Shown: one piece after another, positions 1,103-61,758 of the stretch | Position numbering within the stretch: position 1 is the first letter of the stretch | Layout: each line of letters starts with the position of its first letter | From: Ceratobasidium sp. AG-K | Lineage: Eukaryota > Basidiomycota > Agaricomycetes > Cantharellales > Ceratobasidiaceae | Length of the DNA stretch: 64,000 nt | Direction: 5' to 3' | Assembly: GCA_037039685.1 (NCBI GenBank) | Contig: JAWNGF010000001.1 | Location: 6,510,001 to 6,574,000 of the forward strand | Translations under genes and position numbers: made by a program | The notes under the pieces: model-generated | Told to the model about the DNA's origin: nothing | Database searches by the model: none | The model's input: only the letters and a program-made list of their open reading frames with translations

Positions 1103-1112
1103 TTACCCCCTC

Positions 1113-20892: not shown

Positions 20893-22050
20893 ATGCTTGT
20901 GAGCCTTGTCGCACTTGCTTTGCTAAATCTTTGCGTCTGTGCTGAACCAGTGAGCATTGTTGAGAAATTCAGGTCGCCTCCATACTTACCTCAATCTAGT
21001 GGACCAATGCTAGTTGCATTGCCGTCGCCGGGCGTTGGGTAAGTAGCTTAAGGTCTCGCCCCTTTTCAGGCGCTTCACATGCCAGTAGACCCGAAATGAA
21101 CGTGGGCAAACACCTTGCCTAATTGCCGCATATCTCGCCGCCCAGTGTACGGCCGACAACAGTACGCCTGGCACCTATTCATGCCCTCACGGGGATTCGC
21201 TAATCAGTATGGTGGTAGCTTGGGGAGTCCTGGCAATCAATCGAGGATTTGTAAGTTTAAGCCTTTCCACCCCAAGTTCATGCAACGCTCATGTTCGCTG
21301 AATTTCTCAGTACAATCCCCCTACGCAGGAACAATCGAGTGTTTGCCTGTGAGTACTAAGTGCGTCCTTGAAGGCGCCCAACTGTTCACGCCGTAATGTC
21401 CGTAGCTGTAACTCCGTAACATGGAGCCTCATATCCGCATGTGCATTGTGCCAAGAGAGCTCTGCGGGTCGGTGAGAACGTCAGCAACCCTCCCCATATT
21501 AAAACTGATGCCATCGTATCACGCTTGGCGAAAGCTGGGGAGACTGGATTACCAATTGTCCTAATCCCATTATTGGGAGTTATCCAATTCCCCTCCCTTC
21601 TAGGATTTCTGTTCCTCATTGGGCGTATTACGACTACACAGTTGATGGTATTTTTCGTAAAGAAATAGGTTCGTCAGCTCCCATTTGAATCACTGCATTG
21701 TTTACTAACTCGCTGACACCCAAGCATGGGATCTCGAAGGTATGTATAGTTTGCCTGGTAACCGTTCCCAGCTCAACTCCTTTGCTTCAGGTGCCGAATC
21801 CTCTGCTCCCCCAGCCCCTACAGCAGCCCCTACCACCTGGGCGGTTTCGTCCCCCACTACCAACTTTTCATCTGGCAACAGTTCACCCAAGATAAATGAT
21901 ACTACGCGTGCTATCATAATAGGGGTCATCGGGGGTATTGTGGGACTCGTGCTGATCGTTTCTATTATATACATTATTGTGCGGAAGCGAGGCAAAGACA
22001 AGCCCGCTGGTCCCCAGTTTACCGCAGTGGATTTGGCCGGCGGTATTTAA
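20893..22050 (+). CDS. Gene C: signal-peptide, single-TM ectodomain protein, intact paralogue
   Basis: Third and apparently intact member of the tandem family. Exon 1 (20893-20949) encodes a 19-residue signal peptide ending AEP, with the same exon border as gene B. Following exons contain a cysteine-containing segment (CTADNSTPGTYSCPHGDSL), CNSVTWSLISACALCQ, then WGDWITNC...VPHWAYYDYTVDGIF, a short linker exon, and a last exon (from about 21792) with a Ser/Thr/Pro stalk, a TM helix (AIIIGVIGGIVGLVLIVSII) and a basic RKRGK cytoplasmic start, ending at TAA 22048-22050. The cytoplasmic tail is much shorter than in A and B. Exon-intron phases match those of A and B. Function unknown; topology suggests a surface protein with a small cytoplasmic tail. 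Exact exon borders in the first half are less certain. Confidence 0.65.
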
Positions 22051-23918
22051 ATTGCACGAGGTTCTGTATCCGTGCGACATCTGTGTCTGAAATTATGTTT
22101 TCTGTTCTCCGATGGGTTCCTATCAATTTCTCTTTCAGGTTACTTCTGGCCAAGTGTCCGATCGTCTTTTGTATTACGCCACAAAGCCCTCGTGTGTATA
22201 CGCCCAGCCAAACAACGCGCCGGTGGTACTAATGCTCAGGTTCGGAACCATGATGGCGCTTGCGGTACCTTTATCACGATAAACTTGAGCATCACTCTCG
22301 TATTGCACGTGCTATGTAGGCTCGACCGCGGTAATTCAACGGAGTGTTAAATGCGGATAACACCGAGAGCACCTGCATGAGTATTCCGGCCCACGCCTGA
22401 CTACCCTCCTACTGGCAGTCTGTACGCACCATTTATAGATTGTCATGTGACGCCCGACGGCGAACTTAAACCGATACTTCAGCGAGTATATATGCGTACT
22501 GCCAGTGCGCCGAGTGGAGAATCCTCCGAATGGGCGGCAGGCATACTCAAATTCCGGATACCATAATAGGTGCTTATACAATTGCCGCAGTGTAAACGAG
22601 CGCTCGCACATTGGAGGAAAGCGCATCGAGCAGGACCCCGAACGTGTTCTCCATTGTCTACATATCTAAAACCGGCACCTAAATAGCCTCCGTTCTAGAA
22701 CGTTCTGTGCACTCACTCCAGTCCTCAACGAACGGGAGCATATGTCAAGCCGGTTATTGACCCTCCGTTCTTTTGCCTCGAGCGCCGCCTCCTATTCCTA
22801 TACAATCCGTAAAAATGGGGTGAACATTCATGATTATGAGCCCGGATAGATCTGAACGAGGTTATCGCTGCTATCGGGGGCGAACTAGTCATCAAGATGA
22901 TAAGATCTGTGGGACATATTTGCTCGTAGCGTGAGCTCGAGGCGGAAATCATGACCCACGATGATTCGATCGAGAGTCTCGTCCAACCGCATGACAAGAA
23001 TTTCGTCAAGAACCGCTACGTGGATTGTCCTCATCGCATGAAAATCTGAAAATTCATAACGCGGTAAAGGATGTCAGGGTTGGTGCCGCGGCCGGTTTGG
23101 TCTCTGGGAAAGACTGCCCGAAGCCGAAAAAGAGCGATGGCTGTGAGAAAGGCGCTAGGATTGGTCGGGTCTGTAAATGCGGGGTCTTGTGCGCGCCTTG
23201 GTAACAAAAAACAAACGACAAATATATCGCGATAACCGCGCTCGACCTGCCTCCGCGGTAGCCGAAGTTTATACTATGCTCTCTACGTCAGCTGGGGGAA
23301 GTTGACGTTCCGTGCAGCTTCGTCTCCCCAATTGATGCCCCGGTTCTTGAAATGAGCGACTGCTTACGGCCGAGCTTGTACCGTAATACCAGGATTGGAA
23401 CGATACACTTGACGTGTAAGGCTCGAAATCAGCATACTGAGATGATGCACAAGGGTTCCGATGGCATGAACACAGTGTCGAATATGGTCCGAGATTCGGG
23501 GATTGCTCTTGTGCCTGCCCCCCTGACACCCTCATGGATGAATACGGAATTGTCTGATTTACGATTGGCCATCGGCTATAAGAGACACCGTCCCACTTTC
23601 TTCACTTTCATCCACCACTCAGCCAGGTGAGCTGAAATAATCTCTGTCGCTGAGCACGCCAGCTCACCCAGACGCCCTAGTTCATCTAGTAGTATCGGAT
23701 AGTCGTTGTCTCTGAGAACAGTCGGTGAGTTCGGACGTGTCAAAAATCTCGCCATTGTCGTCATCTCACGAACCGTCCAGTCACAATGCACGGAAATCAA
23801 GTCTTGTCGGCACTAGCCAAGTACAATACCACATGTTCCTACTTAGGTGAGCCTTCACCAGCGTAGTCTGTGCGCCAATGCTGACCCACTCTTCATAGGA
23901 CGCACCAAAACGGCCTCG
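22051..23918. other. Gene-poor interval before ALAS
   Basis: About 1.9 kb in which I see no supportable gene. Short frames occur on both strands (for example at 22725-23009 minus and 22738 onward plus) but none shows a recognisable domain. The last hundred bases should include the promoter and 5' UTR of the ALAS gene; GTGAGC at 23847 could be the donor of a 5' UTR intron. Confidence 0.5.
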
Positions 23919-25935
23919 ATGGCTCGTCTTACTCTCAAGGCTCGTAGCTGCCCCGTCATGAGCCAGGCCATCGCCTTCCGCTCTGCAGGATATGCCAGCT
24001 TTGCCGGTCGCGCTGAAGTCGATGCCATTCACAAGCAAGAGGGTGTCTTCCCCGTTCCGAGCGGCGGTGCTTGCCCCCATGCTCAAGCTGGTCGCGAGGC
24101 TGCCCGTCGCGCGACCCAGCTCGCTCGCGCCAAGAGCAACCCAGCCTCATCTCCCGCTGGTTGCCCTCATGCTGCCAAGGCCGCTACCGCTGCCGCCGTC
24201 GAAAACACCCATGCTACCCGCCCTGGATTTGATTACCAGGCGTTCTATGCGGCTGAGCTCGAAAAGAAACACCAAGACAAGAGCTATCGCTACTTTAACA
24301 ATATCAATCGAATTGCTCCCAAGTTCCCCGTCGCACATACTGCGGTTGCCTCGGAAGAGGTTGATGTCTGGTGCAGCAACGATTACCTTGGGATGAGCAA
24401 GAACCCGGTCGTGCTCGACACAATGCAGTACGTAATTTGCAAATTATCCCATGTCTAAGTTTCTCACGTGCCCGACATTAATCACAGTCGCACTCTTGAC
24501 CGATATGGTGCGGGCGCAGGTGGCACGCGCAACATCGCAGGCAACGGCCAATTCCATTTGTCGCTCGAGGACGAACTTGCTTCTCTCCACCGCAAGCCGG
24601 CTGCGCTCGTCTTCTCGTCGTGTTATGTCGCCAACGACGCGACCCTCTCGACTTTGGGAGCCAAGTTCCCTGGATGCGTTATTTTCTCTGACAAGATGAA
24701 CCACGCGTCGATGATTCAAGGCATGCGTCACTCGCGCGCAGACAAGGTCATTTTCAAGCACAATGACGTCGAAGACCTGGAGGCCAAGCTTCGCATGTAT
24801 CCCAAGGAAACACCCAAGATCATTGCCTTTGAGAGTGTCTACTCGATGTGTGGCAGCGTTGGCCCTATCGAGAAGATTTGCGACCTCGCTGAAGAGTACG
24901 GCGCGATCACTTTCCTAGACGAGGTACGTATCAATACCTACTTTTAGATGTTCCGCATTTGACTAACCTCCTGTATTAGGTTCATGCCGTCGGCATGTAC
25001 GGACCCCGTGGGGCCGGTGTCGCCGAGCACCTTGACTTTGAGACCCACAAGCGCGCCGGGCAGAACCCCAATCCTATCAAGGGCACCGTCATGGACCGCG
25101 TCGATATCATCACCGGCACGCTAGGAAAGGCTTACGGAGCCGTGGGTGGTTACATCGCGGGCTCTGCCGATTTGGTCGACATGGTCCGCTCGTATGCGCC
25201 TGGCTTCATCTTCACGACCTCGCTGCCGCCCGCCGTGATGGCTGGCGCTCAGGCCAGCGTCGCCTATCAAATGGAGTTTATGGGCGATCGTCAGCTCCAG
25301 CATTTGAACACGCGCGAGCTCAAGAAACGTTTCAAGGCTGATGGCATCCCCGTTGTGTAAGTCCTATTATACTTCACCCCAAGTTATCGGTGTCTTATCA
25401 TTACTTGTTTAGTCCCGGTCCGTCTCACATCGTCCCTGTTCTGGTTGGTGATGCTGCTTTGGCCAAGGCTGCGTCCGATTCGCTTCTCGTCGACCACGGC
25501 ATCTATGTTCAATCCATCAACTACCCCACTGTGGCAGTGGGCGAAGAGCGCCTCCGTATCACCCCAACCCCTGGCCACAATCTCGAACAGATGGACCGCC
25601 TGGTATCTGCCGTCAACGAGACGTTCGACCGCCTCGGCATCCAGCGCGAGGCTGACTGGAAGGCCGCTGGCGGACGCGCTGGCGTGGGAATGCCCGATGA
25701 AAAAGTCATCGAGCCCATCTGGAACGACAAGCAGCTCGGACTATTGGACGGCACTAGCCCTCGTTTGCTCACCAAGGGCATGCCTCACCATGTGGGCCTA
25801 GGCGCAGTGCGTATTGCAGCCGAGCGCAACGCTCATGTGCTCGGCCGCCAAGCCACTCACGCGCTCGGCCAGTCGGCTCCGACCTATGTTGAGTCTGCTG
25901 CACGCACTCCTACATCTGTAGCCGTCGGTGCTTGA
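23919..25935 (+). CDS. HEM1: 5-aminolevulinate synthase, mitochondrial
   Basis: Catalyses condensation of glycine and succinyl-CoA, the first step of haem synthesis, in the mitochondrial matrix with PLP. Four exons: 23919-24427, 24488-24923, 24980-25356, 25413-25935; all introns are GT-AG. The N-terminus is a basic presequence followed by two Cys-Pro haem-regulatory motifs (GACPHA, AGCPHA). Catalytic core: [46 protein letters not shown], and the PLP-lysine motif [13 protein letters not shown]. The C-terminus is complete, with a short Ala/Thr-rich end. Start chosen at MARLTLKA, which gives the presequence; an upstream in-frame ATG at 23847 would give a poorer one. Codon use is strongly biased to C/G third positions, suggesting high expression. 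Confidence 0.96.
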
Positions 25936-26759
25936 GAAATTTGATCAATGTTGGCGGAATAAGTGGAATGGTTTAGCAGTGTATTTCTGTGTTGTACGTT
26001 TACGGCCTGGTACCGGAGGATCGTATTCTTGCGACCTGTCAAATAAATACATTGCTTTTGGGTTCTCTTGAGGCTAGAATTGCTAGCTGAGACGCGAATG
26101 ATTACACGTTGCTTGGGATGAAAGATGGAAAAGAGAGAAGAAATGACATTGCGACTGGTGGAGCGCCCGCAATAACGGCGACGACGAGCGAACAAGTCGA
26201 TCATCTGTCGATCTCCCACAGGCTTTGGACAGCTTGGACACTCATTTGGGGACTGTCGGAGTGGGGACTAGGCTTGCTTACCCGTTGCGGGCGTTGATAG
26301 ACGGTAATCTGTTTGCGCACGATCGGGGGGTATACAGTGGCCTATTCGAATCGGGACCAACGACTCATCATTGAAACACTCGCGAACCACATGATCTCCT
26401 TCATCATACCTCTTATAGCATCTATCATGTCTGCATCGAGTGGCTGGACAGGCGCCGTTCAGCCGTTTCGAAGTGCCGGGGCACAAATTCGCAATTTCTA
26501 GCTTCACGGTCCTTTGATGGCTCGAGTTGGACAGGATATCCAGGAGAAATGGGCAATCGAACATTTCACTCGGCATCGTCCTCGACTTTAAAGCTGCTCG
26601 TGCGATGGTAGCCCAATCATCGTACTAGACTTCCTCCCCTCATCGACTCGCAAGTCGTTAGCTCGTGAGCGCTTCGCTCTACCTCTTATTGTTCTCTGCT
26701 CTCCTAACGCATTTCTTCCCCTTACAGTAGTCTGTACATCTCCCCCACGCTCGAGTATC
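25936..26759. other. Intergenic region
   Basis: Holds the 3' UTR of the ALAS gene (AATAAATAC at about 26041 may be a polyadenylation signal) and the promoter of the 7-TM gene, with pyrimidine-rich stretches around 26620-26750. No gene seen. Confidence 0.5.
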
Positions 26760-28408
26760 ATGATCAACTGGTCCGATCCTGAGATCATCGGCAAGCAGGC
26801 GCAAGCCTTTGCCCAAGTGCTGTTGGTCTTATTGGGCATGTACGCATGGGAAGTCCTCAACACTCTAGACTTTGACTATGGCGTGCTAGCCAAGTGGAAA
26901 AGCTTCAAGGTATGTTGCTGTTAACTATAGGAGCATGTCGAGAGTTCTCATTGCGTGGATTTGCTATGTGGGGGTTGTAGTGGCCAATGGTGAGTTTCAA
27001 CTTTAGTTTGTGAAGAACTTTGACTCACTCTTCTATTGTGATCCAGCTCGTCTATTTCACTTGTCGCTATTCTATCTTGATTGGAGTTATTATGCTTATA
27101 GTCGCTAATAACATTACCCGAGAGTTGAACTGCCAGGGTGAGCCACATGCTAGATGTTGCTAGTACAGAACAACCCAACTTACATTCCGTTCCAGTCTTC
27201 TACACCATTATCCAAGTTTGTGTCACCCTATCTTTTTAAAGACATCAACCTAAATTTCCTAACTTGTAGTTATTCGGAAATATTGCAATCGGAACGGCCT
27301 CTGCATTGCTGATGTTCAGAGCGTAGGTGTTTTTCATGCCATCAAACTTAATTACTTGCTGATTCGTCGAGACTCGTAGGATAGCGATATGGTCCCGGAA
27401 CCGCTATGTCTTGTTCGGCTTGTTGGCGGTTGCTCTCGGTCACTGGGGGATTCTTTTCTTGGGTGAGCGCTCCCCGGTCCGCGTCGGGCTGAAAACACGA
27501 TGATTAATATGCTTCCAGGTGTGATATCTGTGCGCGCGGCCTGGAATCCTGCGGGGAATATATGCGTTGTTACGGGTACTTCAACGACCCTTCTGCGTCT
27601 GGTTTATGGATATAGTGGGTTGATTAGGCGCATAATCGGGACAACATCATTGATTGAATTTGTGTTTTTAGCTATGGCATTTGACTTGACGGTACTGGTT
27701 GTTTCAACTGCCGGTTTGCTGCGCGCTGGCGGAACACAGGGGTCAGATCTCTGGAAACTGCTTTTTCGCGATGGAATAGTGTACTTCCTTGTCGCTTTCG
27801 TCGGAAATGCCGTCGCGTCGGTAAGTGGGCATCGTTACGATGGCGTTAGCATTCCCAACCAAACCTTTGTTAGGTGTTCACGATTTTACATTTGAATGCT
27901 GCGTAAGCCCGCTGTCACTTTGCTCGGTGAAGGTTTTTTTTTATTAACATTTTTCAAATAGTATGGATATTATGTTCACCGTCCCGGCCGCCGTATTCAG
28001 CACCATTGTGGCATGCCGGGCTGTTCGAAGATTGTCCGAATGGGCTCATCAGGATGTGTACATCCAGTAGGTCTTCAGTCAGCTTATCTCTTACAACGAT
28101 ACTCATGCCAATTTCAACCACAGTTCGCACTCGCGGACCAACCAACCTCCTGTCCTACGTAAAGAATCCCAACGGCCCGCCGTGCAGATTACAATGGAGA
28201 CATACACTGCGTATGTCCACCGGATTAGACTCGTCGTTGATATGTCAGCTGATTGGTTATATGTAGGCAGAGGGAAGAGTCGTTCTACCATGTCGAGAGG
28301 AACCGCGTGGGGCCGACCAACGTAGATTTGGAGCGGCGCCAGAGTTCAGACGATGATATGCTGTCGCGCAAAATATCGTCCCAAAAAGAATTGACGACGC
28401 CTCTCTAA
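26760..28408 (+). CDS. Multi-pass (about 7-TM) basidiomycete membrane protein
   Basis: Many short exons encode a hydrophobic protein of roughly 330 residues with about seven TM helices. Exon 1 (26760-26909) gives a helix (VLLVLLGMYAWEVL) and ends SFK; a 9-nt exon (26981-26989, WPM) follows; then LVYFTCRYSILIGVIML, a conserved NC, IGTASALLMFRA-IWSRNRY, and further helices to about 27985. The cytoplasmic tail is polar and charged (final exon 28267-28408, ending QKELTTPL). The pattern, including FKWP, YF..RY and the ASALLMFR-IW motif, is that of a large Agaricomycete family of integral membrane proteins without assigned function. It converges with the Exo70 gene. Exon borders in the second half are approximate. 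Confidence 0.72.
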
Positions 28409-28751
28409 TCTCGAACACTCGTCGAGTTTTCATTGGACATGGCATAGAACTATACACGATACAGTGTACTACATTATTGCTTTCTTCGTTTTATTCGTTT
28501 GGCTGTCGATCCTTCGCTCTTACTTCTTTGTTAGGATATCCAATCTGTTCGCTCTCTTATCGATACCATGGGTATATACGTCGTACAATCGTGTAAATAG
28601 TGTAATATACGAGTCGTGCGGTATTGTGATGGGAATTTGGACTCCTTGCGGGGGCTAAGCTACTTGGGCAGATCGAGATGACCTGTCAATCTGTCGAGGC
28701 CGCATCGCACCATCAGGCGCCCGCAATTTACCGAGTTGCCGCCTGAAATGT

Positions 28752-31198
28752 TCATTTATACAGTCCCCGTAATTGGCGCTCCACTTCTTCGGGCGTCAGT
28801 TTGATATCTGGTCGTCCGAGTAAGCAATAGTTGAAAATCGATACCAGGCTTGGTGCTCACACTTTGAAGGATCTGTAATCAATGAAGAGCGTTAGTGTCA
28901 ATGGGTAAAGTGTGATTAATCAGGTGACAAGACGCACTTTTACTGAATTCCTTGTCTCTATGCTTTTGCGTGAACCGTTGCAAAGCGGGAATAACCAGCC
29001 GCACAACCTCGTCTTGGAGCTTTTCCCTACCTTCCTCGTCGTCTGCCAAGACTCGGGCGTATCGATGGCGTTCCGCAACCTCTTCGAGCGCTTCGAAGAA
29101 CCTGGCAAATTTGTCTTTGATTCCAGCCTTTTTATCTTTCGCATCATCGGTCAAGCAGCCCAATAGCGCAGTAAAGTTGGTATCAAAGTATGCGGCCTAT
29201 TGGAAATACCAGATATTATTCTGCATCATTGATTGAAAGATCAAGCATACCTTAGAGCTCCGAAAGTTAGAGTTCAAGGTGTCTTGGGTGGGATTTGATA
29301 GCAATGCATCGATATTGGATCGAGGAGCGAGCAAAATTCGGTCCCGAATGTAACTGACATTGTTTAGCATGAATATCGCAGTTAGTGCTGGCCTTTTCAG
29401 GAACCTAGATATGACGTTGAGCGTAGAGATCAAGGAGGAGACAATGTCAACTAAAAGTTCGAGATCAATTTCAGTTTAACACACAGTGAAGCAAATGCAT
29501 GCTTACAAGTAAAGTGCTCGAGGATTATTCGCTCTGGATCGTCTGATTCCTCAATTCGAGCTTTCGCCCCAGGAATCATGCCTTCACCCATTCTCCAGTT
29601 TCCATCTCCTAGTGTGATCAGCATCGAGCTCATGGCGTCGCCCACGTCCGGGATACGTTCTAAATAATCTACGGTCTGCAGGGCGTTGGCTCGGACTAAC
29701 ATCTACCTGTGAGAAAGTGCCCACCATAACGGTCACGTCCGCAATACCAGTACCAATTTCACCACGCCCAGGTGTGGCGGTAGGTGGCGACATGGCTGGT
29801 GTCTTGATTTCCAGGAGCAGCTCGGGGAAACTACGGATGCACACTCCCTTGAGCGCATGAATGCCTGTACTTAGGTCGTTTTCCTTCCTCCCGGTGCGAC
29901 GAAGCATGATATCCGTATATCCGTCTTGCATCTGAGAAAGCGAGGAGTAGACGGCTAGTGCCATGAAAATATTGTTTTGCAAGTTTTTCTTCACGAGGGA
30001 GCTAAGGTTTGAGAGGGATGAAGCAAATAGTGTAACTAGCGGTCGGGTCATGACCTCGAATGCTTCCTTGAGCTGGTCTCTTCCCGTGAGTAATGCACAT
30101 CGTGTAAGTGTATTGTACTCTGCCTTGGAGGGGGCTTGATTCCGGGTGAACGACGGTTTGAACGAGAAGACTCACGTCGGCCATAGCTAGCAACCCCTCG
30201 ACCCACGATCCAAACTCTCGTCCAATTACAATTCGATCCGTTCCAGTATCGGCGGCTGCTAAGATTCTTCGTATCCCACCATCCACTGCCTTCTTACACC
30301 ATTGGCTTCGCATATCTGCGTAACCCGCCTGCGCCTCTTGTACCACCGCAAATATAGCAGCGCTGCCTGGGTGCGAAGGATGCGTGGCTGGAGTTGGCGA
30401 CTTTCGCAGTGCGTCGACGACGGGCAGTAGCTTGGACATTGTGTTTTCATCAATGGTCGGAAATTCTTGGGATTCTAGGTGATTAACTGGATCGATCGCG
30501 GGCCGAGCAGTCGCCTCTGCAACGATCTTTGTATACAGCTGACAAAGTTTCTTGGCTCCAGTTTCCACAAGACGCGACTATGCAAGTAGAATATCATTGC
30601 GTGGTATTTTTGCTTGTGAATCCACCTACAGTTTCTTTGGATCGTGGATCACCACTCTGAAATGCAATGTTTGCGTTTAATCGCTCCAGCGCGTCTACGT
30701 AGAGATGAAGCTGCCCGGACTTGGGGCTAAAGGATAGTTCTTAGTCTTGTTTGAGGCAAGATTACATGGCCGACGCACCCTTTGAGCACCATATTCTCCT
30801 CCGCAACGACGTCTTGTTTTTGACTCGCCATCGAGTTAATAGCCTCCATGGTACGGTCGATGTCTAAACCCAAATATCAGCTCGTGGGCGCGTGCAATAT
30901 TCCTGTCTCGCGTACTGTTTGCGAGCAGCGTTAGAGATTCTGTTGCATTGTGCAGTGGCCGGATGGTCTTTTCCAACTTGACAAGACGGGAGTCGAACTT
31001 GGCGAGGATACCTGGAATGATCGAGCTTAACAATACGATACCCAGGTCGTTAGGCCAACTGACCAGTCATCTTTCTCGATGTATCTGACGTCTTCTTCAG
31101 ATGTTGCTCAAGCTTAAGATGTTAAATAATTATTTTGCAAGCTGATTTAAACGGCAGAGTGTACGAACCAACTCTATATCTGCCATCTCGTCCTCCAT
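28752..31198 (-). CDS. EXO70: Exocyst complex subunit Exo70
   Basis: Subunit of the exocyst, which tethers secretory vesicles to the plasma membrane; Exo70 binds PI(4,5)P2 and Rho GTPases. The gene starts with MEDEMADIEL and contains a coiled-coil N-terminus (LAKFDSRLVKLEKTIRPLHN, EAINSMASQKQDVV). The middle includes LMADVSLL-type helices and the region around ALAVYSSLSQMQDGY. The C-terminal Exo70 domain ends with LNNVSYIRDRIL, FEALEEVAERHRYA, QDEVVRLVIPALQRF and the family hallmark KLTPEEVERQLRGLY at the very end. About ten exons. Start ATG at 31196-31198, stop TGA at 28752-28754. Divergent from the pfkB gene about 400 bp away. Confidence 0.92.
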
Positions 31199-31597
31199 TG
31201 TTCTGGGTACAAGAAATTGTGTGGTCGCGATGGGTTACTGTAAATGTGACACTTTGTACCTGCCAAATAATCACAGCAGTTTCAAGAATTCAATATTTAA
31301 GAGCAGGGGCTGGAGCCCGCGGTAGCTTCAAGTGTTGGTCCAATGACTATCGACGATGACTGACACTGATGGTGGTCGTGAGGACGTAACGCCTCGCCGC
31401 CAGGTTAGGCATAATTGCTCCCGATTGATCGGGTTCAAGTTCATCACCGAATCATAGTCTCGACCACGATAGCGCCTAAATTGGCGTCTTTATTTGTTCG
31501 TCTCGTCTAGCACTTCTATTGTATTACAACGATTGAGCGCAGTTATTCGCTGTTCATTCACAGACTCCAGGCCGGAATCGCGGATCGGAACGTAATC

Positions 31598-32979
31598 ATG
31601 TCTCAATCCATGCGACCTGTCAAGCATCTTGTCTCTCTTGGAATGTTTATACTAGACGAGTTTGAGTTCTCAGACTCTGAAGGAAACCCTACTGGAAAGA
31701 CTCAGCCGACCCAAGTAAGCTACTTCCCTTATCAGGGGCAATCTGGGATTGAAACCACTGCGCTAGATTGGAGGTGGAGGAACATATGCAGTGGTCGGAG
31801 CGCGAATATGGTACGTCTGAACTTGGCGATGAGTGGATATGTTTAGTATTGGCGCAAGCCAACAAGGCTGCCACCATCTAGAGTAGGGCAAATTGTCGAT
31901 CGAGGGCTCGATTTTCCAGCATGGGTTCAGAGTGAACTCGATCACTACGGACTGGAGATGTGGCATTTCCGAGACCCAGCTGATCATAAGACAACGAGGG
32001 CGGTCAATCACTATAGAGGAGAGTTGAGAGGGTAAGCATTCACCCGCGCTTGGCCACTAAAATAACGATATTCACGGGCAGGAGCAGTTTCGACTATCTT
32101 ACCCCCCGTATCCGACTTACCCCCAAGGATCTCCCCGGCACGCCACTCGAATCTCCCCAACAGATTCACTTTGTGTGTTCTCCAGCACGAGCTGCTCAAA
32201 TATTGCAAGATGCAGACGTGTATGGTGCAAAGGACTGGAAGCCATTCACAATATATGAACCAATTCCTGTAAGCTCAGCTCGAACCTTGCCGACCGTATC
32301 ATTTAAGAGGCATGTATGTTTAGTTTCGGTGCGTTCCGGAGGAGTTGCCCGCTCTCAAACAGGTGCTTGGTCAAATCGATATCCTGAGTCCGAATGCCGA
32401 AGAAGCCTTGGGCTTGCTCTCACTCGACAAGTCTGGCGAGAACGATCCGTCGGTCATTGAGTCTGCGGCGGCGGAATTTCTCTCGTTTGGAGTGGGCGCT
32501 CAGGGGTTGGGTCATGTCATTATTCGTTGTGGCGCAATGGGTGCGTACGGAGCCACGTTGAAAGATGGAAGGGTAGAAGGATGGTGGGTGCCTGCGTATT
32601 GGACCTCGGAGGATAAAGGCATGGTAGTAGATGTAACAGGCAAGTTCGGCGATACTGAATGGGGTTGCGAGTTTTGACGAATGGTTCTAGGTGCCGGCAA
32701 TGCATTTTTGGGGGGTCTTTCAGCGGGGCTCAGTCTGTCAAACGGTGACGTTCGTGAAGGTGAGAGCTCCAAGTGCAGTTTCACGTATTCATGCTTATAC
32801 GCTGCCCAGCTGTCTTATATGCAACGGTTTCTGCTGGATACACGATCCAGCAGCTCGGGCTTCCTCGCGTCGAATATAAAAGATCGGGCTCGGCTGAATC
32901 AGTAGAGCTCTGGAACGGAGACTTACCTAAAGATAGACTGGAACGACTCAAACGGCGCTGCACACGATCAGGAGTATAA
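31598..32979 (+). CDS. MAK32: MAK32-like pfkB-family protein
   Basis: Ribokinase (pfkB) fold protein most like yeast Mak32, a protein of unclear biochemical role known from dsRNA killer virus maintenance. Exon 1 (from 31598) encodes VSLGMFILDEFEF; the next exon holds the glycine-rich IGGGGTYAV; then the ARIWLPP...GLDFPAW, RIRLTPKDLPGTP and ILSPNAEEALGLL segments. The C-terminal pfkB signature reads DVTGAGNAFLGGL: the position of the catalytic Asp in GAGD kinases is Asn. Yeast Mak32, as I recall, also departs from the consensus here, so loss of kinase activity is plausible but inferred. The splice between ARI and WLPP needs the acceptor ACAAG at about 31866. Convergent with the NC2-beta gene. 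Confidence 0.8.
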
Positions 32980-33114
32980 TTGAGAATTATGATATCAATA
33001 GAATACATACACGTGTTGAAGTACATGGAGACGGCTGGCTGTAGACGAATGATGATAATACCATTCATCAGTGACTTCAAGTAGGACAGCACATGAGTTC
33101 AATCCGGATTCCAT

Positions 33115-33770
33115 TCATTGCGTCGCTTCAAACCGAGCTCTGCTGGCGGCAAACAACCGTTCTTGCTCGCGGAGCAACTCCTCTTCGGATTTGCCAGAGG
33201 CTTCAAACTTGGACGTTTTCTTCTCTCGATCCTAGGTACTATACTGTCAGCGCACGGATGACGATGAAGGCGAAAGGACTGACTCTCTGAGCCTGTTTGT
33301 GGTCTTTGAGTACACCTTCGACCTCTTCGACGTAAGACTCGAATCCAAGTGTCTGGCAAGGCATAAGTATGGCATACGTGCTAGACACAAGCGAATAGCC
33401 TCGCACCTTCAGCGCCCCAACAATGTGTTCAGGAGAAATAGTCTTCTTAGATTCCTTCTCACAAATTTCGTTGGCTTCGGTCGATATCATGTGGATAAAT
33501 TCTTGCCGTGGATGGGAATCAGCCAAGAGTGCCAAATACGGAGGAGACGTATGGATGAACGGGACTCACCGACACAGCACTCGATAATCAGATCCCTCGA
33601 CTCTTTCGAGCTTAGAATGTCCTTTGGCAAAATCTCTAAGGAATCGGTCAGCCTTGCCGTAACGGCGGTGTCCTGGAGACAAACTCACCGGCGATCAACT
33701 TTTGAACGGTGGCCTTGGGAAGAGACAACTCGTCGTCGGCAGCACCACTGGGTCCTTCATGATCTGACAT
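33115..33770 (-). CDS. NCB2: NC2-beta / Dr1, TATA-binding-protein repressor subunit
   Basis: Histone-fold subunit that pairs with NC2-alpha (Drap1/Bur6) to bind TBP and block TFIIA and TFIIB. Exons on the minus strand: 33689-33770, 33570-33635, 33501 downward, and so on. The protein begins with an acidic segment, then SLPKATVQKLI, the histone fold DILSSKESRDLIIECC-VEFIHMISTEANEICEK, KTISPEHIVGALK-TLGFESYV, and a charged C-terminal helix (KFEASGKSEEELLREQE). The motif PEHIVGALK.LGF is diagnostic for Dr1. Its start is 162 bp from the start of the divergent SmF gene. Confidence 0.93.
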
Positions 33771-33932
33771 GGTCTTCTACTTTATGGTGTCGTTTGAAGA
33801 ATGAGGAAAACTCAATAGTGGCGACTTTGTGATGGTCATTTATCGGTTCTCAGAACTTGGTGTGTGCTCGTGTTGATGTCCTGACCGCACAAGCGCCGGG
33901 CCACAGCTACGACCAAACAACCATACCCAGCA

Positions 33933-34393
33933 ATGTCGGCGGTCAGTAGACTTGCGAAAAAGGCAACAGTTTTTATTGAAAATTTCTACGATTTAGGTCA
34001 CTCCAGTCAACCCCAAACCTTTTCTCCAGGAACTTACCGGGAAGCCCGTCTTTGTTCGTCTCAAGTGGGGATTAGAGTACAAGGGTTATTTGGTTAGCAC
34101 GGACAGCTACATGAACCTTCAGGTGAGTCTGGATCTCCTCCGTCATGGGTCTTTGTTTACTATGCGATGCCTCTAGCTTGCTAACACGGAAGAGTTCGAG
34201 GACGGCAAATCCAACGGAGCATTGGGTGAAGTCTTCATTAGGTACGTCCTCTCGAATCGTGGTACCATTCATTTCTGACATGTTGCCACAGGTGTAACAA
34301 CGTGCTTTATATAAGGTACGTACCTGTTTGCTTTCGGCCTGGACAAAAACTGATGATTTATGTGTTTACAGAGAAGCACCGTCAGAGTCCTAG
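33933..34393 (+). CDS. SMX3: Small nuclear ribonucleoprotein F (SmF)
   Basis: Core spliceosomal Sm protein of the heptameric ring on U1, U2, U4 and U5 snRNAs. The first exon encodes only MSA (33933-33941). The following exon holds [20 protein letters not shown] and the Sm1 motif ([18 protein letters not shown]), followed by the Sm2 region [18 protein letters not shown]; the short last exon encodes EAPSES and TAG at 34391-34393. The length of about 85 residues is normal. The gene ends 70 bp from the end of the convergent phosphopantetheinyl transferase gene. Confidence 0.94.
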
Positions 34394-34463
34394 CATTTTT
34401 CATGTCTATTACGTCCCTTGTACCTCCTGGAAAATCAAAAATGCGGTTATACCCGCTTATCTA

Positions 34464-35333
34464 TTACATCGAGGAGGCTACGCATTCGGCAAGTGCATTC
34501 ACCTCCACAAACTCTACCAGCCCATGCGGCGCGTTATCCAAATGTAGTACACTCGATTGATCCCCGTTGATTTGACGCGCGGTTGATACGACATACGCGT
34601 CCAACGCATGTTGTGTGACAAAAGAGGTGATTTCCCACCCTCGAGGGGGTTTTCCATCCACCGTGACATTGCCGCCAACGACGTCGTATTCAATTCGTGC
34701 GAAATCGTACCCTAGGCCTTCTCCAAGTGCCTTGGTATACGCCTCCTTTACTGTCCACATTCTATAGAGTCTCAGCAGTCGCGTTGGCTCGTCCGCTGCG
34801 CTGGGTTCAAGCTGTTTCTTTTCTCGTTCGGTGAGCTGTTGGTGGGTACGCGTTAGTACTGACACTTGTTGGAGGACTCGCTTACCTGGTCGGTAACAAA
34901 TTCGACAAATTCGTCCATGGTCGTCTTTCGAGGCAACGCTACCCTCATTACATCTATTCCTACAGACTCCCCCGAGCCACAAACGATCGCTACCATGTCG
35001 GAATCATGGGTGACATTGTAGGTCAAGGGCTTCGGACTTTGTAGCTTTCGAGTAAGTGAGTGTTCAAACACTCGGTGGCGTGAGTCTCCGGTCCACTCAC
35101 AATCAGTGGCTTTCCATGCTCAGTCTTTCCAAACTTGATTTGTTCCAGGTGAACATTGTTTTGAGTGAGCCAGTACCGAGGGAGTAGATGGCCAATCAGT
35201 GACCCTTTGCCAACTTGACAATCGAGTTTTTGAGGACGGGCGCAATGGACTTACGCCAAGAGTCCTCTGCGTGATAGAACCGGCGTAGTCTATCTTGTAT
35301 ATCCGGGGGAAGCACGGACATGAGGCGGTCCAT
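34464..35333 (-). CDS. 4'-phosphopantetheinyl transferase (Sfp/Lys5 type)
   Basis: Transfers phosphopantetheine from CoA to carrier proteins (aminoadipate reductase, polyketide and non-ribosomal peptide synthetases). Exon 1 (ATG 35331-35333) encodes MDRLMSVLPPDIQDRLRRFY; exon 2 has RSLIGHLLPRYWL and IKFGKTEHGKP. The magnesium-binding motif is VGIDVM, and the second signature is RLYRMWTVKEAYTKALGEGL. The C-terminal extension (about 80 residues) ends at TAA 34464-34466. The GxD and WxxKE..K residues required for catalysis are present. Confidence 0.92.
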
Positions 35334-35652
35334 GTTCTATATTGCACTTTGAGTGTACAGACGATACTAGTATGCAGTTGAAAGGTACATCACGCTTCAT
35401 AAATTGATCGTCCCATTGAATGCACACGATAAATATACGCGTTGCCTCGTTTGACATTGGATAGTAACCCAAAGCGGTGGTAGTTAATTAGAAGGTCACT
35501 GAAATCCATACCTTCCACATGCCGAAACAACAAGTATCTCGGGCGTGGCTGTGTGTCTTGTTTATATCCTGGAGACGACCACAACCGAGTTGCAAGCCAC
35601 TCAAGCTCTACAAGTATCTCGTTGTGCCTGACCACTCCGAGGACTGTACAAC

Positions 35653-37225
35653 ATGTTGCGATGGTGTAATCTTCAAGTCGTCAAATGCTTCAAATGCATG
35701 GAACGTGCCGCAGAGACAATCACAGGCGTGGCCGGTCCATTCTTCATCGGGTTTGCATGTATTCTTATGGGAACGGGTGTTTTAGTGTTCTGTGAGTATA
35801 TCTTCCCTGCTCCCCACTTGCTTCTAACCGCCCCTATCCAGTCGAAGTAGTTGCACCGACTCTGCCCTGGCCCTTAATAACCATTCCTCTGTGCATGCTT
35901 ATTGCCTCCAACTTATTGGCGCACTACTACTATGTATGTACCATCCATCCAGGCCGACCTGATGATGGTCTGGGTACTGGGGAGGGCCGGGGATGGAACT
36001 GGGCTCCGAAACGTGGGGGAAAGGGCGTCAAGTGGTCTCCGGTCAACCTCTCGGGCTCACCGGGGTCGGATATCGGCGAGAGACAGAATATCCCGAGATG
36101 TAACAGATGTCAAGGACTGAAGCCCGAGGTAAGGTTGAATGTTGCACCAGTGAAATTTGGAATTAACGAATCATCAGCGGACGCATCATTGCCGTGAGTT
36201 TGACATTAGACGCAGACTATACTACATCTCACGGGATTCGACCTGATTAGGCGTATGCAAGTCGTGTATCCTCAAATATGTAAGTTAAAGCGTGGATATG
36301 TGACTGTACTAAAACTAACAATCGCTTTACAGGATCACCACTGTCCCGTAGGCGAGTTTTACGCGGCACTGCGCTGAGTTGTCTGACCGTTTGATAGTGT
36401 AAGTAACGTCGATAAACCTCATAGCTATTCCTAACGGCCACGGCGCAAAGGGATTAATCAATGTGTACGTGGGCAAAAGCATCTGAGTATGCGGTAATCA
36501 CTAACTTGCTCTGTTGCCAGGTTGGATTACGCAACGAAAGACATTTTGTGCTTTTTATGTGAGTAGCTCTAGAAATTGCAGGACTATGGTCGAATCGTAG
36601 CATCAGGTTTTACTTCGTAGTCGCGACGTCCTGCTTTGTTGTTGCCGGATACCCATTTGTTTGGTCAGCTCTAGACTTTGGTCGTAGTGTGAGTTGGACT
36701 GCTTCTGACCAGTACGGCACCCGCCTAACTATACTAGTGGAAGCACCTGACGCCCGAGATGGTATTTGTGATCATCTACATACTTTGCCTGGCGTTGGGA
36801 CTCGCTGTCTCGGTGATGCTCCTTTGGAACATCTATCAGATTGGGACTGGTGTGACTACCGTCGAAGGCTATGACCATGGTATTTATTCTGACAGAGCTC
36901 GAAACCGTGGCGAGGTGCGAAACCCTTGCTGTCCTCGACGGGCCGAGACTGACAACCCATGACAGACATTTGTGAATAGCTACGATCTCGGATTTTTCAA
37001 GAATATTTCCTATTTCTTCAACGTAATCCCTTCAGGATAGTAAGTTTACGTGAAGCCATTTTACTAGAAATTATCTCACCTTCAATTGTTAGTCCATTGT
37101 GGGTCTACCTACTCCCACTTCGAACAGCACCGTACACCGATGGTTTTGTTTGGGCGAGGCGTCAGGGTTATACTCAGCACGCCGGTGTGCGAGATGGGGA
37201 CGAGATGACAGATGATGATGACTAG
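35653..37225 (+). CDS. DHHC-type protein S-palmitoyltransferase
   Basis: Integral membrane enzyme that attaches palmitate to cysteines of target proteins. About eleven exons: 35653-35791 and 35842-36128 encode two TM helices and a cytoplasmic cysteine-rich lead (PRCNRCQGLKPE). Then come the short exons 36178-36193, 36251-36279 and 36333-36347, a single T at 36398, 36451-36464 and 36521-36558, which together give [34 protein letters not shown]. Two more helices follow (FYFVVATSCFVVAGYPFVW, MVFVIIYILCLALGLAV), then the TTVE motif (GVTTVEGYDH) and the PaCCT-like NSYDLGFFKNISYFF. Stop TAG at 37223-37225 after an Asp run. The DHHC cysteine is the acyl acceptor. The 1-nt exon is needed to keep frame (see findings). 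Tandem with the AspRS gene, 125 bp downstream. Confidence 0.92.
36398..36398 (+). other. Predicted single-nucleotide exon (T)
   Basis: It lies between introns 36348-36397 (GTAGGC...CTGAC...GATAG) and 36399-36450 (GTAAGT...CTAAC...CAAAG). Its T joins CCC to GG to form the Trp codon of DHHCPW. Without it the frame shifts after DHHCP. Seen directly in sequence; splicing itself is inferred. Confidence 0.7.
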
Positions 37226-37350
37226 AATTTCGTGTACCGCGACTTGACCCAACGATATAGCATATACGAATTGTATGCACCCAATTTTGTCCCCGATTGG
37301 TTTGAGTGGTCGCTTCTCACACAGCCACCAACTACTTTCTCTGAGCTAAG

Positions 37351-39917
<2,567 letters not shown>

Positions 39918-40133
39918 ACCCCTGTAGAAACTGAATGAATCACACTTCAAGTCCACATAAGTGCGATTGAAAGAAAGTGCATACAACAATTCCTATAGGA
40001 AACATGATGTCGAAAACAAAACGAGAGAACAAACATGTCCGAAAAAAGCATATCAGAAACATATGGAGCGGGCTGTACACTCTAGCGAGATGCTATACAC
40101 TCTAGTCGTAAACCGCCCTGCGTATCGTAAAAC

Positions 40134-42095
40134 CTATCGTGCGTTCTCCTCGGCGGTCACGGTCACACCGCCCTCGCTCGCCGTGTCTTCCTTCTCCCGT
40201 CCCTCTTGTGTGTTGCGTCCAACCGTTCCTCCGCTCCCGCTCCTGGAAAACGAGAACCGCGTTGCAACAGGAGTAGAATCCAACGCAGCCTCACTCATCC
40301 CTTGAATCGTTAAAGTCTGCCCCGAGTCCTGTCCCAGCGGCGTCGGACCCGGCGGAGTATGGAACTGGGACCGTTTCGGGAACGCGTACGATGCCCACCC
40401 TCCATCCCCGCCCTCGACCTTATTCCGTTCCACACTCGACTCTCTCGAAGCAAACCTGCTGCCGTACCCGTCCGATTTGTTGTTATCCTCCCCCCGCGCT
40501 TCCTGGATCATACCCATCAGCGGTGGACTCGCGAGCGGTGAAGAGGCAACGGCTGCATAAGGAAAGTGTTGAGATTGGGACGCAGGGTACCCTACACCAC
40601 CCGTACCGACAATCGGAGGGACGGAATGCCTCCTCCCAGCCGCGCTCCCAGAGTCTGACCAGTCGTTTTGTCCATCGAGCCACGACTTGAGGCCGTTTTG
40701 GCTCGTCGCGGGTGTGCTGGCGAGACCTTGAGTGGTGCTAGAAGTGGCGGGACCGGTTCCCGCGCTAGACGCGGCGCTACCTGGAGCCGTGGTTTCGCCT
40801 GTTGGTGTTTTTGTGCCTGAAAGAATGTCGAGTGGAGCGAGGATGGAGAAGATTGCGTCAGCAGAGGGTTCTTGGGAGGAGTATTCGTCGAATGGGTCGG
40901 GGACAGAGGCGAGGATGTGTTCGAGGGACGGATCGGAACTAGTCCAAGTCAGTGGGAGCTCTATAAGGTGGACGACTAGACTCACGCCTTGGCTGTAATT
41001 CGATCATACACGTCCATAGTCGACCGAACGACAACTGAAACCTAAAGGCAAATTAATTCTTGTTGGCAGGTGGACCCAGGAATAGGGCTCACATTGCCGA
41101 GAACGCCATCCCATATCCGTTGTTCGTGTTCCAACACTTGCTGATAATAGTCGGATTTGAGCTTGTCAAGGTCGTTTACTTGCGCTTGCAGCGTAGCCAG
41201 CGCCGTGCGGAATGAATTCAAGTCTGTCCATTCGTCCGGGATTTAACCCCAGTAGCCGAGCTGTCAAGACTGGTGACGTACCGCGCAACTTCTTCCTCCC
41301 GACTCTCATATTATCGGCCTCTGTCTTCCGAATAAGCCTACTCTTCTCTGTCAGTGCATGCTCATATTCTGCCGTCCGTGTCTAGCAATTCATTGGTCGT
41401 TAGCAAGCAGTAAATAATCTACGTAACAATCACTCACAGCTACAGTCGACTTGTAGGTCTCGTAGCCCTGCCGTAAAGGAGCCTCAAACTTGTGCGCGAG
41501 GGTATGTTCGAGGATCCGCTCGTGATTCGACATCAAGTCTGCCAAAATAGACGCGAATGAGACCTAATCGAGACGGGCGGCAACTGCGGTGGCTCACGGT
41601 GCAGTCCAGCAGCAGCCTAATCAGGATCGAGTCAGACGTGTGAGCCGGAGCTACAGATGTGGGTTGTACATACCTGGAGGTCCTTTCCACACGCATCCGA
41701 CGGTCCTTTGAGTCTATCGTACTGTGGCATGAAAGGCTGAGCCAACTAGACGTAATAGTTCAACTAACCTCGAGCACTTCTCTATCGCCTCTGCAAACTC
41801 GGCGCTCGCAAGGGACACTCCAGACAGTGCCTCTCGGAATGAACGACTCGCGTTCAAGAGCTGTTCGGTCATATTAACTTGTATTTCCATTGTGAAAAGC
41901 TAATCGACTCACCTGCTCAAATGCGTCTGCACTGGCTCTCAAATCTGCCCGGGTAATGATACGCTCTGCTCTCCCAGTAAGCTCACGCACATCCGAGGCA
42001 TTGGTCGTGACCGAGAACGTAGGCGACGTGGGGCGAGTGTTGCCCAACAGCTGAGTGGAATTCAGCGACTGGGTCCGTGTGCGTATCCGGCTCAT
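40134..42095 (-). CDS. IVY1-like BAR-superfamily protein
   Basis: About 530-residue protein with a helical membrane-binding module followed by a disordered tail. Segments in order: SDVRELTGRAERIITRADLR, SADAFEQ-LLNASRSFRDAL, LASAEFAEAIEKCSR, ASGLHHVMSNHERILEHTL, FEAPLRQGYETYKSTV, and LATLQAQVNDLDKLKSDYY. These match the pattern of fungal Ivy1-type inverse-BAR proteins (vacuolar, Rab/Ypt7- and lipid-binding in yeast). From about residue 240 on the large last exon (to 40134) is Ser/Gly/Thr-rich without a domain. The start is chosen at MSRIRTRTQ (42093-42095); an upstream in-frame ATG at 42159-42161 would leave only 28 bp to the start of the divergent bL19m gene. Family assignment is by pattern and moderate. 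Confidence 0.65.
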
Positions 42096-42189
42096 GCTGT
42101 CGTCGTCGGTAGTTGGCGACGTAACGCAATCGGTAATGGAATCATTGGTATTAGTCAGCACGGTCTAACCTATTTTCTACTCTACCACC

Positions 42190-42726
42190 ATGCTCAGCCG
42201 CTTGTTGACTCGCGGGCTGGCGACGGCCGCGAGCAAGCCGTATCCGTTTGCGAGTCTGGTGTCGACGCCTGCACCGCCCCCACTTCCAGAGACCAGGGAC
42301 CGAATGCTCGTCGGCAAAGGTCTCATGGCTCACTTACACAAAACTCTTCCGACTCCCGCTGCACAAACCCTCATGAGCACTTTATTTGCTAAAAACCACC
42401 CAGACCGGGTATTGCCTGGCTCGGTTCTGGCGCTTACTCTCACCCACGCGCCCAACAACTTTTCTGGCGTGCTGATCGCCATTCGTCGAAAGGGCCCCGA
42501 TACGAGCTTTACCTTGCGAAACGTCGTACAACGGACAGGGGTCGAGATGAGGTTTAGCGTAGGCAGCCCAGCAATCAAAGAAATCAAGGTCATTCAGCGA
42601 GCAGGCACGGGAGGAGGAAAGAGCGGGCGCAGGATGAGAAGAGCCAAGTTGTACTACCTGAGGGACCAGCCGGCCAAGATGAACGCTATTTCCGCAGGGG
42701 TCAAGCGTGCGACGGCCAAGTCATAG
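42190..42726 (+). CDS. IMG1: Mitochondrial large-subunit ribosomal protein bL19m
   Basis: Single-exon 178-aa protein. A short basic presequence (MLSRLLTRGLATAASKPYPF) is followed by the L19 fold: HPDRVLPGSVLALTLTH, FSGVLIAIRRKGPDTSFTLRN, VEMRFSVGSPAIKEIKVI and a basic C-terminal RRMRRAKLYYLRD. The FTLRN...GVE.RF...SP.I..I pattern is diagnostic for L19. It starts beside the divergent IVY1-like gene and ends 111 bp from the riboflavin kinase stop. Confidence 0.93.
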   Translation: MLSRLLTRGLATAASKPYPFASLVSTPAPPPLPETRDRMLVGKGLMAHLHKTLPTPAAQTLMSTLFAKNHPDRVLPGSVLALTLTHAPNNFSGVLIAIRRKGPDTSFTLRNVVQRTGVEMRFSVGSPAIKEIKVIQRAGTGGGKSGRRMRRAKLYYLRDQPAKMNAISAGVKRATAKS

Positions 42727-42837
42727 CGGTGCGTGTTTATACAGGCCGGTACGACTCGTGCTCATGTGTACTCAGTTAAACTTCATGGGTATATTAATGA
42801 ATTATGTCTATCACAATCTACTCGGCTCGTCGTCTAC

Positions 42838-43451
42838 TCAGATGTCAGATGCGTGTACTCGATATGCAGGCCGATCGAGCGATTTGAGCGCGACTCGCTT
42901 GTCCGTCTCGATGTCCTCGATGAGCGCCTCTGCATACACCCGTTAGCTCGTGTGCCCACTCAAATACAACGAACCCACCTCGGGAGACATAGTCCAGTTC
43001 AGGCCTAATGTACCCAAGTACTACCACGGTCATCTCGGTCCCGTAGAAATCCTCCTTGTACCCGTGCATAATATGCACCTCCTACACCACGTCAAACCCA
43101 AAATCCAATCGCCCGAAATGCCACTCACCGCAGTCAACTTTTCGTTCTTGTAATACGGATTCCACCCCATACTCATCACCATCGGCCATACTTTCCTATC
43201 CTCTTGAGGCGAAGTATCAGAAAAGTGCACCTTTGCATATCCATAGTAGATCCCAGGCTTCGCCACAGTCGTCATAGGATCAAGAGACTCGTCCGGGAGG
43301 TTAGCTGACACAGCCACGAGTGTGAGCCTCAGTTGCGATAAACTATCAAGCAAAACATACCAGTCAAACATCCCAAATCCCTCCCTCCTCGCCCAAACCC
43401 TCGCTGCACAGCGCCCCTCATGATCACAGGGAAACGGCGCCTCGGGCTCAT
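42838..43451 (-). CDS. FMN1: Riboflavin kinase
   Basis: Phosphorylates riboflavin to FMN. Exon 1 (from ATG 43449-43451) encodes FPVIMRGAVQRGFGRGGRDLGCLT, the nucleotide-binding start of the family; after an intron come ANLPDES, KPGIYYGYAKVHF, VWPMVMSMGWNPYYKNEKLT, then EVHIMHGYKEDFYGTEMTVV, GYIRPELDYVSR, and finally EALIEDIETDKRVALKSLD, ending at TGA 42838-42840. Four exons. The frame is open upstream to an ATG at 43748, so a longer N-terminus (possibly a targeting sequence) cannot be excluded. Confidence 0.93.
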
Positions 43452-43833
43452 CAGCGCCGACGATCGCAGGCCCGTGAGCTCCTGAATGACTCGGTACGCA
43501 GCGGGGCAGTTGGACGAGAGGGCGATCGAATGAGCTCGGCGGCCGTTTTGGTCGTCTGTGAGAAGACATGGCAGAGATGCGGTTGAAATCCGACTGTCGA
43601 CTTTTTGGATTAATATTGGGTTCTGCTCGGTAATCACGGGCACGCAGCGTGGGATTCCGTCATTCGCGTGTTTTAGCGCTGGCCCTGGTTGACTCGAACG
43701 CGCCCATGGCAATATCGACACGTAACATGGGACTTGGCCTGCGATCAACTGAAATTGTATTGCATCGGATTACAGCGTGGCTATACCTTTATAAATATTC
43801 TTCGGAGCTTATGCTGTCGTTCAAGTCACAACA

Positions 43834-44808
43834 ATGTCTGAATCCATGGCCACGTTGATCTATGACTTTCTACCTGCTCTTGCTGCGCTCGATCCTCACC
43901 ATACCTACACAATCACTCCTCTCTCCGTGTGGCTATCGTGAACCTTACTGTCCGGGCAAAAATAACTCCCGCGACCGGAAGATCATGAATGCGTGTTCGG
44001 GACGCTGGATCAATGATCGCCATGTATGCTCCGGCGTACGTTGCATCAATAGGCGAGAGTGCGCCATTTAGCCAGTATAGACAAGTGAGGAATCTACCCA
44101 ATTAGTATATTCTGTGAAATTTTCACACTAAACTTGCCAGGTACCTTCGAAGCTCGTGGCCTTGGCCTATGTCTTTCACAGCCCTCGCTGGGCGCATCAC
44201 ATCCAGTCCAATGTTATCCGGGGGGGGGGGGGGACCCTCCCCCGCTTATTCCACCACGATGCCTGCTTTGTTTATCCTACTTTATGAGCGACCTAGGAGA
44301 TGTATCTACCCGTGATCTATGGTTAAATTCAGAATCGAACTACCATCAGAGCAGGCTGAATCTGCTGGGAGGCTATTTCTGGAGAATTTCTTTTGCCCGT
44401 TTTGGGTTAGCATCGTCGGAGCATTGTCAATAAAAGGTTTGGAGTCTCCATACGTACCACCCAGTTTGAGACCAATAGATTACTAAAACTATGGGCAAGC
44501 TGAAATCACCATCGACCTTCCAACGCACTTTTCGAATCCATCGACACACGAGTTTATCGATCCCGTTGCCAGTGCTTCTCGATTGAACCCCACATGAATA
44601 CATGCGGGCTCGATCCAGACGAGGCATCCTTCCTCGGCAAGGCTTGTCTAGAGATGTAGCGAGCGCCAGCAGAAACCTGGACGAGCCAAGGTGTTTGGGG
44701 TTGGGCGACTGTTGGCCCAAGTCGTTGCTCGTCGGTGTGATAACTTAAGTGTGATTGACTGGGAGTTTGCCCGTATGATCGAGCCGTTGGGTGATTTGGC
44801 GCAATTTA
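43834..44808 (+). pseudogene. APH/choline-kinase-type phosphotransferase, broken, runs into gap
   Basis: Fragments in different frames are collinear with a fungal aminoglycoside-phosphotransferase-fold protein: MATLIYDFLPALAALDP, then VNLTVRAKI, MIAMYAPAYVASIGESAPF, a GT-AG intron-like stretch, VPSKLVALAYVF, LMSDLGDVSTRDLWL, and the catalytic C-terminal LSVIDWEFARMIEPLGDLAQF just before the Ns. The frames do not join by plausible introns alone: there are frame changes near 43975 and after a 14-base G run (44220-44233). I read it as a pseudogene, or a gene with sequencing errors in the G run. Function of the family members is kinase-like on small molecules. Confidence 0.6.
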
Positions 44809-61548: not shown

Positions 61549-61758
61549 CACTAGGCCACAAAAGTTTTGCTGCATGTGACCCTAAAGGTGCCTGACAACT
61601 GTGGCGGATGGTGTAGGAGTTGCAAAATTAAGTAAAAATTACTGTCAGACTTGCATGTATGATTAGTATATACATACCCAGTCTCATAGCAAATGATCAT
61701 GAAATGACTTAACTGTGGAGAAAGTCAGTCAATAGACCCTGGCAAAACTTTTGTGGCA
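61549..61758 (+). repeat. Left inverted arm of the Tc1-type element
   Basis: About 210 bp, starting CACTAGGCCACAAAAGTTTT and ending GGCAAAACTTTTGTGGC, that is, with inverted copies of the same word at both borders. Matches 62942-63150 in reverse complement with scattered, mainly transition, differences. Confidence 0.85.

Follow-up and report, generated by a model that had tools for sequence, protein, structure and literature searches.

Evidence for a one-base exon within the catalytic motif of a DHHC palmitoyltransferase gene in Ceratobasidium and its apparent conservation in related fungi

Introduction

Single-nucleotide exons have been regarded as extremely rare, and the preliminary description of the locus considered here named Arabidopsis APC11 as the known example. 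Their rarity holds, but APC11 is not alone, as VPS55, CYP621A, Candida snoRNA clusters and mitochondrial cases have also been reported. The one-base exon of APC11, found in Arabidopsis and land plants, has been tested with reporter constructs (PMC4674806, PMC8831610). Like the candidate described here, it is a single base, flanked by AG and GT, without which the reading frame is lost, and annotation had missed it; it is retained in most land plants. It differs in being the base A within a 422-nt intronic stretch of a plant gene, whereas the present candidate belongs to a fungus, lies between introns of about 50 nt and falls in a catalytic motif. VPS55 of land plants likewise has a one-base exon that is deeply conserved and absent from reference annotations, with a conserved GTRAGT donor, but it is alternatively spliced in some lineages and belongs to an unrelated gene of another kingdom (PMC8831610). 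The plant cases had already shown both the deep conservation and the pervasive misannotation of one-base exons. RNA evidence has been published for APC11 and VPS55 as well as for CYP621A.

In fungi, a 1-nt exon supported by RNA reads has been described in 20 Fusarium orthologues of CYP621A (PMC12940212). It resembles our candidate as a protein-coding one-base exon in a conserved motif for which nearly all database models are wrong, and differs from it as an Ascomycete case reported within Fusarium, whereas the present gene is from Basidiomycota and its exon shows apparent conservation over two classes. The same paper suggests that G is favoured (PMC12940212); the exon base in the palmitoyltransferase gene is T. 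Candida parapsilosis and its relatives also have single-base exons, set between introns that carry snoRNAs, where nuclear fungal introns stand one base apart as they do here and the splicing order was inferred from RNA-seq; these hosts differ in being non-coding, the base having no coding role and the exon shrinking to size zero at one place in D. hansenii (PMC5033589). This paper (PMC5033589, 2016) predates the 2026 report on CYP621A (PMC12940212), which claims the first case in a fungal gene, and the two literatures seem not to be linked to each other.

Single bases are also kept between mitochondrial introns, namely between group II introns in the rnl gene of Ophiostoma, with Ceratocystis cited (PMC12308204), and in placozoan cox1, where the base preserves a conserved residue (PMC5436844). 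Both share with our candidate a single base retained between two introns, but they do not involve the nuclear spliceosome. The [D1,2] stwintrons of ascomycetes also consist of two introns removed by consecutive splicing reactions, but the mRNA keeps nothing of them, whereas here one base must remain (PMC12403724, PMC5639578). The literature searched, outside which most subscription journals lie, yielded no single-nucleotide exon from Basidiomycota and none in a palmitoyltransferase gene. If our reading is true, this would be, within that literature, the fourth nuclear protein-coding gene with a one-base exon after APC11, VPS55 and CYP621A, the first such exon in Basidiomycota and, with the plant cases, among the most widely conserved.

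Results and Discussion

The palmitoyltransferase gene

The window analysed is a 64,000-nt stretch of the Ceratobasidium sp. AG-K genome (contig JAWNGF010000001.1, positions 6,510,001 to 6,574,000), in which a DHHC palmitoyltransferase gene is interrupted by 11 introns, all GT-AG and 48-57 nt long (Table 1). Its exons measure, in order, 139, 287, 16, 29, 15, 1, 14, 38, 82, 177, 74 and 133 nt, giving a coding sequence of 1005 nt (334 aa plus stop) with an intact reading frame and a coding share of 64% over the gene's own span. The product matches the Pfam profile PF01529 with 115.7 bits against a cut-off of 28.7 (residues 133-252), a search of NCBIfam gave no match, and the spliced product carries both the DHHC catalytic motif and the cysteine-rich domain. 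Relatives with a solved structure include DHHC20, ZDHHC9, ZDHHC5 and ERF2, and human DHHC20 aligns with the product through the motif DHHCPW. The top organism-named relatives among the matches listed are Ceratobasidium and Rhizoctonia proteins of about 80% identity. As controls we used one other DHHC gene (L001), in which the DHHCQW codons are unsplit, and a second paralogue (L002), in which an automated search located no DHHC.

Table 1. Positions in the window of the palmitoyltransferase gene, the parts around its one-base exon and the duplicated block
Feature	Position	Strand	Length	Description
DHHC palmitoyltransferase gene	35653..37225	+		ATG to stop; 12 exons, 334 aa
Exon 5	36333..36347	+	15 nt	Encodes D-H-H-C-P including the catalytic cysteine; ends ...CACCACTGTCCC
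Intron 5	36348..36397	+	50 nt	GTAGGC...CTGAC...GATAG
Exon 6	36398..36398	+	1 nt	Single T, base 1 of the Trp codon in DHHCPW
Intron 6	36399..36450	+	52 nt	GTAAGT...CTAAC...CAAAG
Exon 7	36451..36464	+	14 nt	GGATTAATCAATGT; first GG is the final two bases of the Trp codon
Duplicated block containing the gene	19581..44806	+	25.2 kb	Other copy on the same contig, 6165887-6191052, 99.1% identical

A single T and the DHHCPW motif

The preliminary description placed a lone T at 36398 between two canonical introns of about 50 nt, in an otherwise intact gene with exons of 16, 29, 15, 1, 14 and 38 nt around the motif. Re-reading reproduced its coordinates and the sequences of both exons, both introns and the T exactly; the exon sizes and the intactness of the gene were borne out by the model above, and the 103 bases between exons 5 and 7 do divide into 50 nt + 1 + 52 nt, within the intron sizes seen gene-wide. 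Exon 6 of the model thus conforms to the definition of a single-nucleotide exon, one base between the acceptor AG and the donor GT of canonical introns, and the Trp that it completes stands two residues past the catalytic cysteine.

The earlier claim that the T restores the frame and gives Pro-Trp agrees with an enumeration of all partitions inside 36333-36464 that contain no more than two introns, each 35 nt or longer and bounded by a GT or GC donor and an AG acceptor. Twenty-three partitions were in frame (the unspliced stretch included) and six had no stop; one, the one-base-exon solution, yielded DHHCPW, and no alternative canonical partition did. A single intron of any boundary type fared no better, as none of the 2882 frame-keeping contiguous excisions inside 36333-36464 gave the motif. 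T36398 is therefore required for the frame, no other splicing tried keeps the motif, and the one-base exon is the sole canonical way found to retain DHHCPW.

The six in-frame solutions without a stop include a single intron 36343-36450 with the donor GTCCCG, the product of which (DHHW-INQC) would preserve the frame and the Trp while losing the catalytic Cys and Pro, and would thus be an inactive isoform. This form is seen in 3 of the 94 public models of relatives listed (see below), but its donor is poor and C-P-W is kept in 26/26 short contigs and in 40/40 outgroup annotations listed, so we give it almost no credence as the explanation of this stretch; as a minor isoform the DHHW form is possible. 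The layout of two adjacent canonical fungal introns with nothing sizeable between them also resembles a stwintron (nested introns) or a recursive-splice unit, the whole 103 nt of which would be removed to leave nothing in the mRNA. Full removal of a stwintron keeps the frame, whereas excision of these 103 nt as one unit shifts it directly past DHHCP, as had been pointed out before, and leads to a stop after 183 aa; moreover, the splice elements of each intron are left whole by the other. A stwintron here is thus scarcely credible.

There are 26 T's within the 103 nt, and T36398 is the only one flanked by AG and GT. In 100,000 shuffles of the 103-nt interior with its ends fixed, judged by criteria set after the sequence had been seen, AG-T-GT that left neither intron shorter than 45 nt arose 1750 times. 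Under the same post hoc criteria, 242 of the 100,000 shuffles also had a GTRNGN donor, and 17 had this donor together with two branch-like sites.

The gene is part of a duplicated block whose copies stand about 364 kb apart, which may be either a true segmental duplication or a retained haplotype (alleles). Over 5.5 kb compared base by base, the 103-nt stretch is identical in the second genomic copy, and the sole internal indel falls in intron 10; the coding sequences differ at 12 positions (nine synonymous and three amino-acid-changing, with no coding indels), and both copies stay in frame only with the T. This bears on the possibility that the 103 nt are one intron and that the assembly lacks a T beside 36347 or 36451, in which case there would be no tiny exon. 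A lone missing base would explain the frame equally, and 36348 and 36450 do end a valid GT-AG pair. An error shared by the copies is conceivable from the copies alone, because both come from one assembly, but annotations from dozens of differently named species fail at the same codon (see below), a 103-nt intron would be an outlier in this gene, and the co-occurrence of AG-T-GTAAGT with two branch-like sites would have to be coincidence (17/100,000 shuffles). Together with the identical second copy, these observations make an assembly error very improbable.

The same codon in the proteins of relatives

Homologues were scored for the motif in 120 proteins listed of 265 passing the E-value, grouped into 26 proteins on short contigs (longest 1095-4043 nt) and 94 organism-named genome annotations, the latter from Agaricomycetes and two Dacrymycetes. 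DHHCPW is present in 26/26 short-contig proteins compared to 2/94 named annotations listed (Fisher p 2.5e-24), the other 92 failing at this codon. In 18 of the 26 short contigs the coding share exceeds 64% (0.65-0.93), which leaves no room for the same intron load, and these 18 are presumably cDNA; the remaining eight (P0010, P0011, P0026, P0029, P0043, P0045, P0047 and P0049) are not coding-dense enough for this argument. The closest relative among those listed, P0001, is 87% identical, has 957 coding nt in a 1180-nt contig and carries an intact motif. When each short contig is paired with its nearest neighbour among the 94 named models, that model is broken at this codon in 23 of 26 cases (54-81% identical); the partner of P0026, P0042 and P0049 is P0054 (Taiwanofungus camphoratus) or P0014 (Tricholomella constricta). 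These are the two named annotations with DHHCPW, and could either be well annotated or lack the intron pair. A scan of the gene against genome-contig and viral-contig collections found no relative.

The 92 failures listed fall into a few classes: PVR (42), inserts without Trp (24), PG (12), PVW (4), DHHW (3), inserts ending in Trp (3), PCVG (2) and other (2). PVR can be decoded as CCC-GTRA joined to GG, with the donor shifted by 4 nt inside GTRAGT, and PVW would arise in the same manner from GTAT|GT. DHHW, which also arises in the window's own enumeration, would borrow the T of TGT, and PG looks as if the extra base of the cDNA had been forced onto an intron G; in the window, PG results only from 102-nt excisions with non-canonical ends. 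The PG models include one of Rhizoctonia solani (P0003) and that of Ceratobasidium AG-I (P0002), while P0005, a further R. solani model, is garbled and the model of Ceratobasidium AG-Ba (P0004) contains an insert. PVR and PVW (46/94) would place a donor directly behind CCC and an acceptor directly ahead of GG, with one base absent; PG and DHHW (15/94) appear to fit the same layout, and PCVG and the two others agree with it only loosely. By pattern matching, 79/94 models preserve the flanking motifs to either side of the codon (upstream 82, downstream 90), so the damage is mostly local and the models are not generally poor.

The relatives could have failed for another reason, for example a non-canonical intron in the Trp codon, in which case the exon would be real in Ceratobasidium sp. 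AG-K without being conserved. The comparison was made at the protein level, and the decoding covered the classes other than inserts (27/94 models, 24 without Trp and three ending in Trp), which gives this explanation some room. Against it stand the layout implied by PVR and PVW, with which PG and DHHW fit, the expectation that annotation would cope easily with an ordinary intron in the codon, and the outgroups, which show no such errors; we consider it improbable. The same DNA layout in relatives, deduced from their proteins and from the decoded annotation errors, is the reading that we prefer.

Two further searches added 97 listed proteins, comprising, to judge by their names, 15 from Agaricomycetes, 40 named from other groups and 42 remaining. 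DHHCPW was found in 0/15 of the Agaricomycete annotations listed, in 40/40 of the listed annotations named from other fungal lineages and in all of the remaining 42. The profile of one of these searches was built from Trp-bearing proteins; broken Agaricomycete models were nonetheless among its matches. P0131, of the 15, and P0005, of the 94, are weak tests, because the former, a fusion, is missing the DHHC part and the latter is garbled. In P0131 (Ceratobasidium sp. 395) the public model joins part of the palmitoyltransferase to a protein bearing PF01336 and PF00152, which we take to be tRNA synthetase domains. A similar-looking synthetase gene lies, by eye, directly downstream in the window from about 37382, so that gene order seems conserved and P0131 is probably a fusion artefact.

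The outgroups with DHHCPW are smuts and allies, rust relatives and other Pucciniomycotina, Phaffia, Kwoniella, Cryptotrichosporon, Wallemia, Mucoromycota and Calcarisporiella. The motif is thus intact in Phaffia (Tremellomycetes) and Wallemia (Wallemiomycetes); both Dacrymycetes listed are broken (Dacryopinax PLG, Calocera PVR). On this strong protein evidence the one-base exon appears conserved across Agaricomycetes and Dacrymycetes, and the simplest reading would be a single origin before these two split. The layout would then be inherited, having probably arisen before the Agaricomycetes-Dacrymycetes split and after the parting from Tremellomycetes. It may have been retained since because loss of the T, or removal of 36348-36450 as one intron, shifts the frame after the catalytic cysteine.

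DHHCPW is absent in 107/109 named Agaricomycete and Dacrymycete models listed, which means that public fungal catalytic motifs can be wrong class-wide, a systematic error. The one-base exon in this gene looks old, conserved and overlooked, and nearly all of the public Agaricomycete and Dacrymycete annotations examined stumble there. Given its apparent presence in very many species, of which some are genetically tractable, the exon would offer a natural series for studying the spliceosome, intron order and exon persistence, and one that bears on how an exon without room for exon definition is handled.

Proposed splicing

The reading of the preliminary description is supported, and relatives add independent backing at the protein level. 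We are highly confident that T36398 is a genuine, normally included exon, that the flanking introns of about 50 nt are removed sequentially and that the arrangement is inherited, the splicing in this gene being judged from the genomic DNA. Both introns would be recognised through intron definition and their removal would be sequential, because a single base separating AG from GT is unlikely to let both sites be occupied together. Stepwise splicing is plausible, and the authors of the APC11 study argue likewise for stepwise removal, citing potato invertase, in which the second intron goes first (PMC4674806). For the present gene we lean somewhat towards intron 6 being removed before intron 5, because intron 6 has the full-consensus GTAAGT and CTAAC compared to GTAGGC and CTGAC in intron 5.

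If the base is skipped, the predicted stop comes after 183 aa and is followed by three exon junctions; retention of intron 5 would give a stop after 171 aa and retention of intron 6 one after 164 aa, so each failure would end translation soon past the catalytic motif. For this reason the exon, after one origin in the ancestor of Agaricomycetes and Dacrymycetes, might also have been kept as a gate through which splicing efficiency sets the amount of active palmitoyltransferase, an idea that we regard as speculative and rather doubtful.

Other repeated sequences in the window

Besides the duplicated block that holds the gene, a 3.1-kb piece (window 9563-12629) is shared, at 97.9%. Window 1001-2500 lies within a high-copy repeat with 39 other (near) full-length matches at 96-98% identity among the 40 scored out of 661 candidates, and is probably a recently active transposable element. 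Window 61501-63000 has a second copy at 99% (C1:284621-286115) and relatives on C7 at 85-86%.
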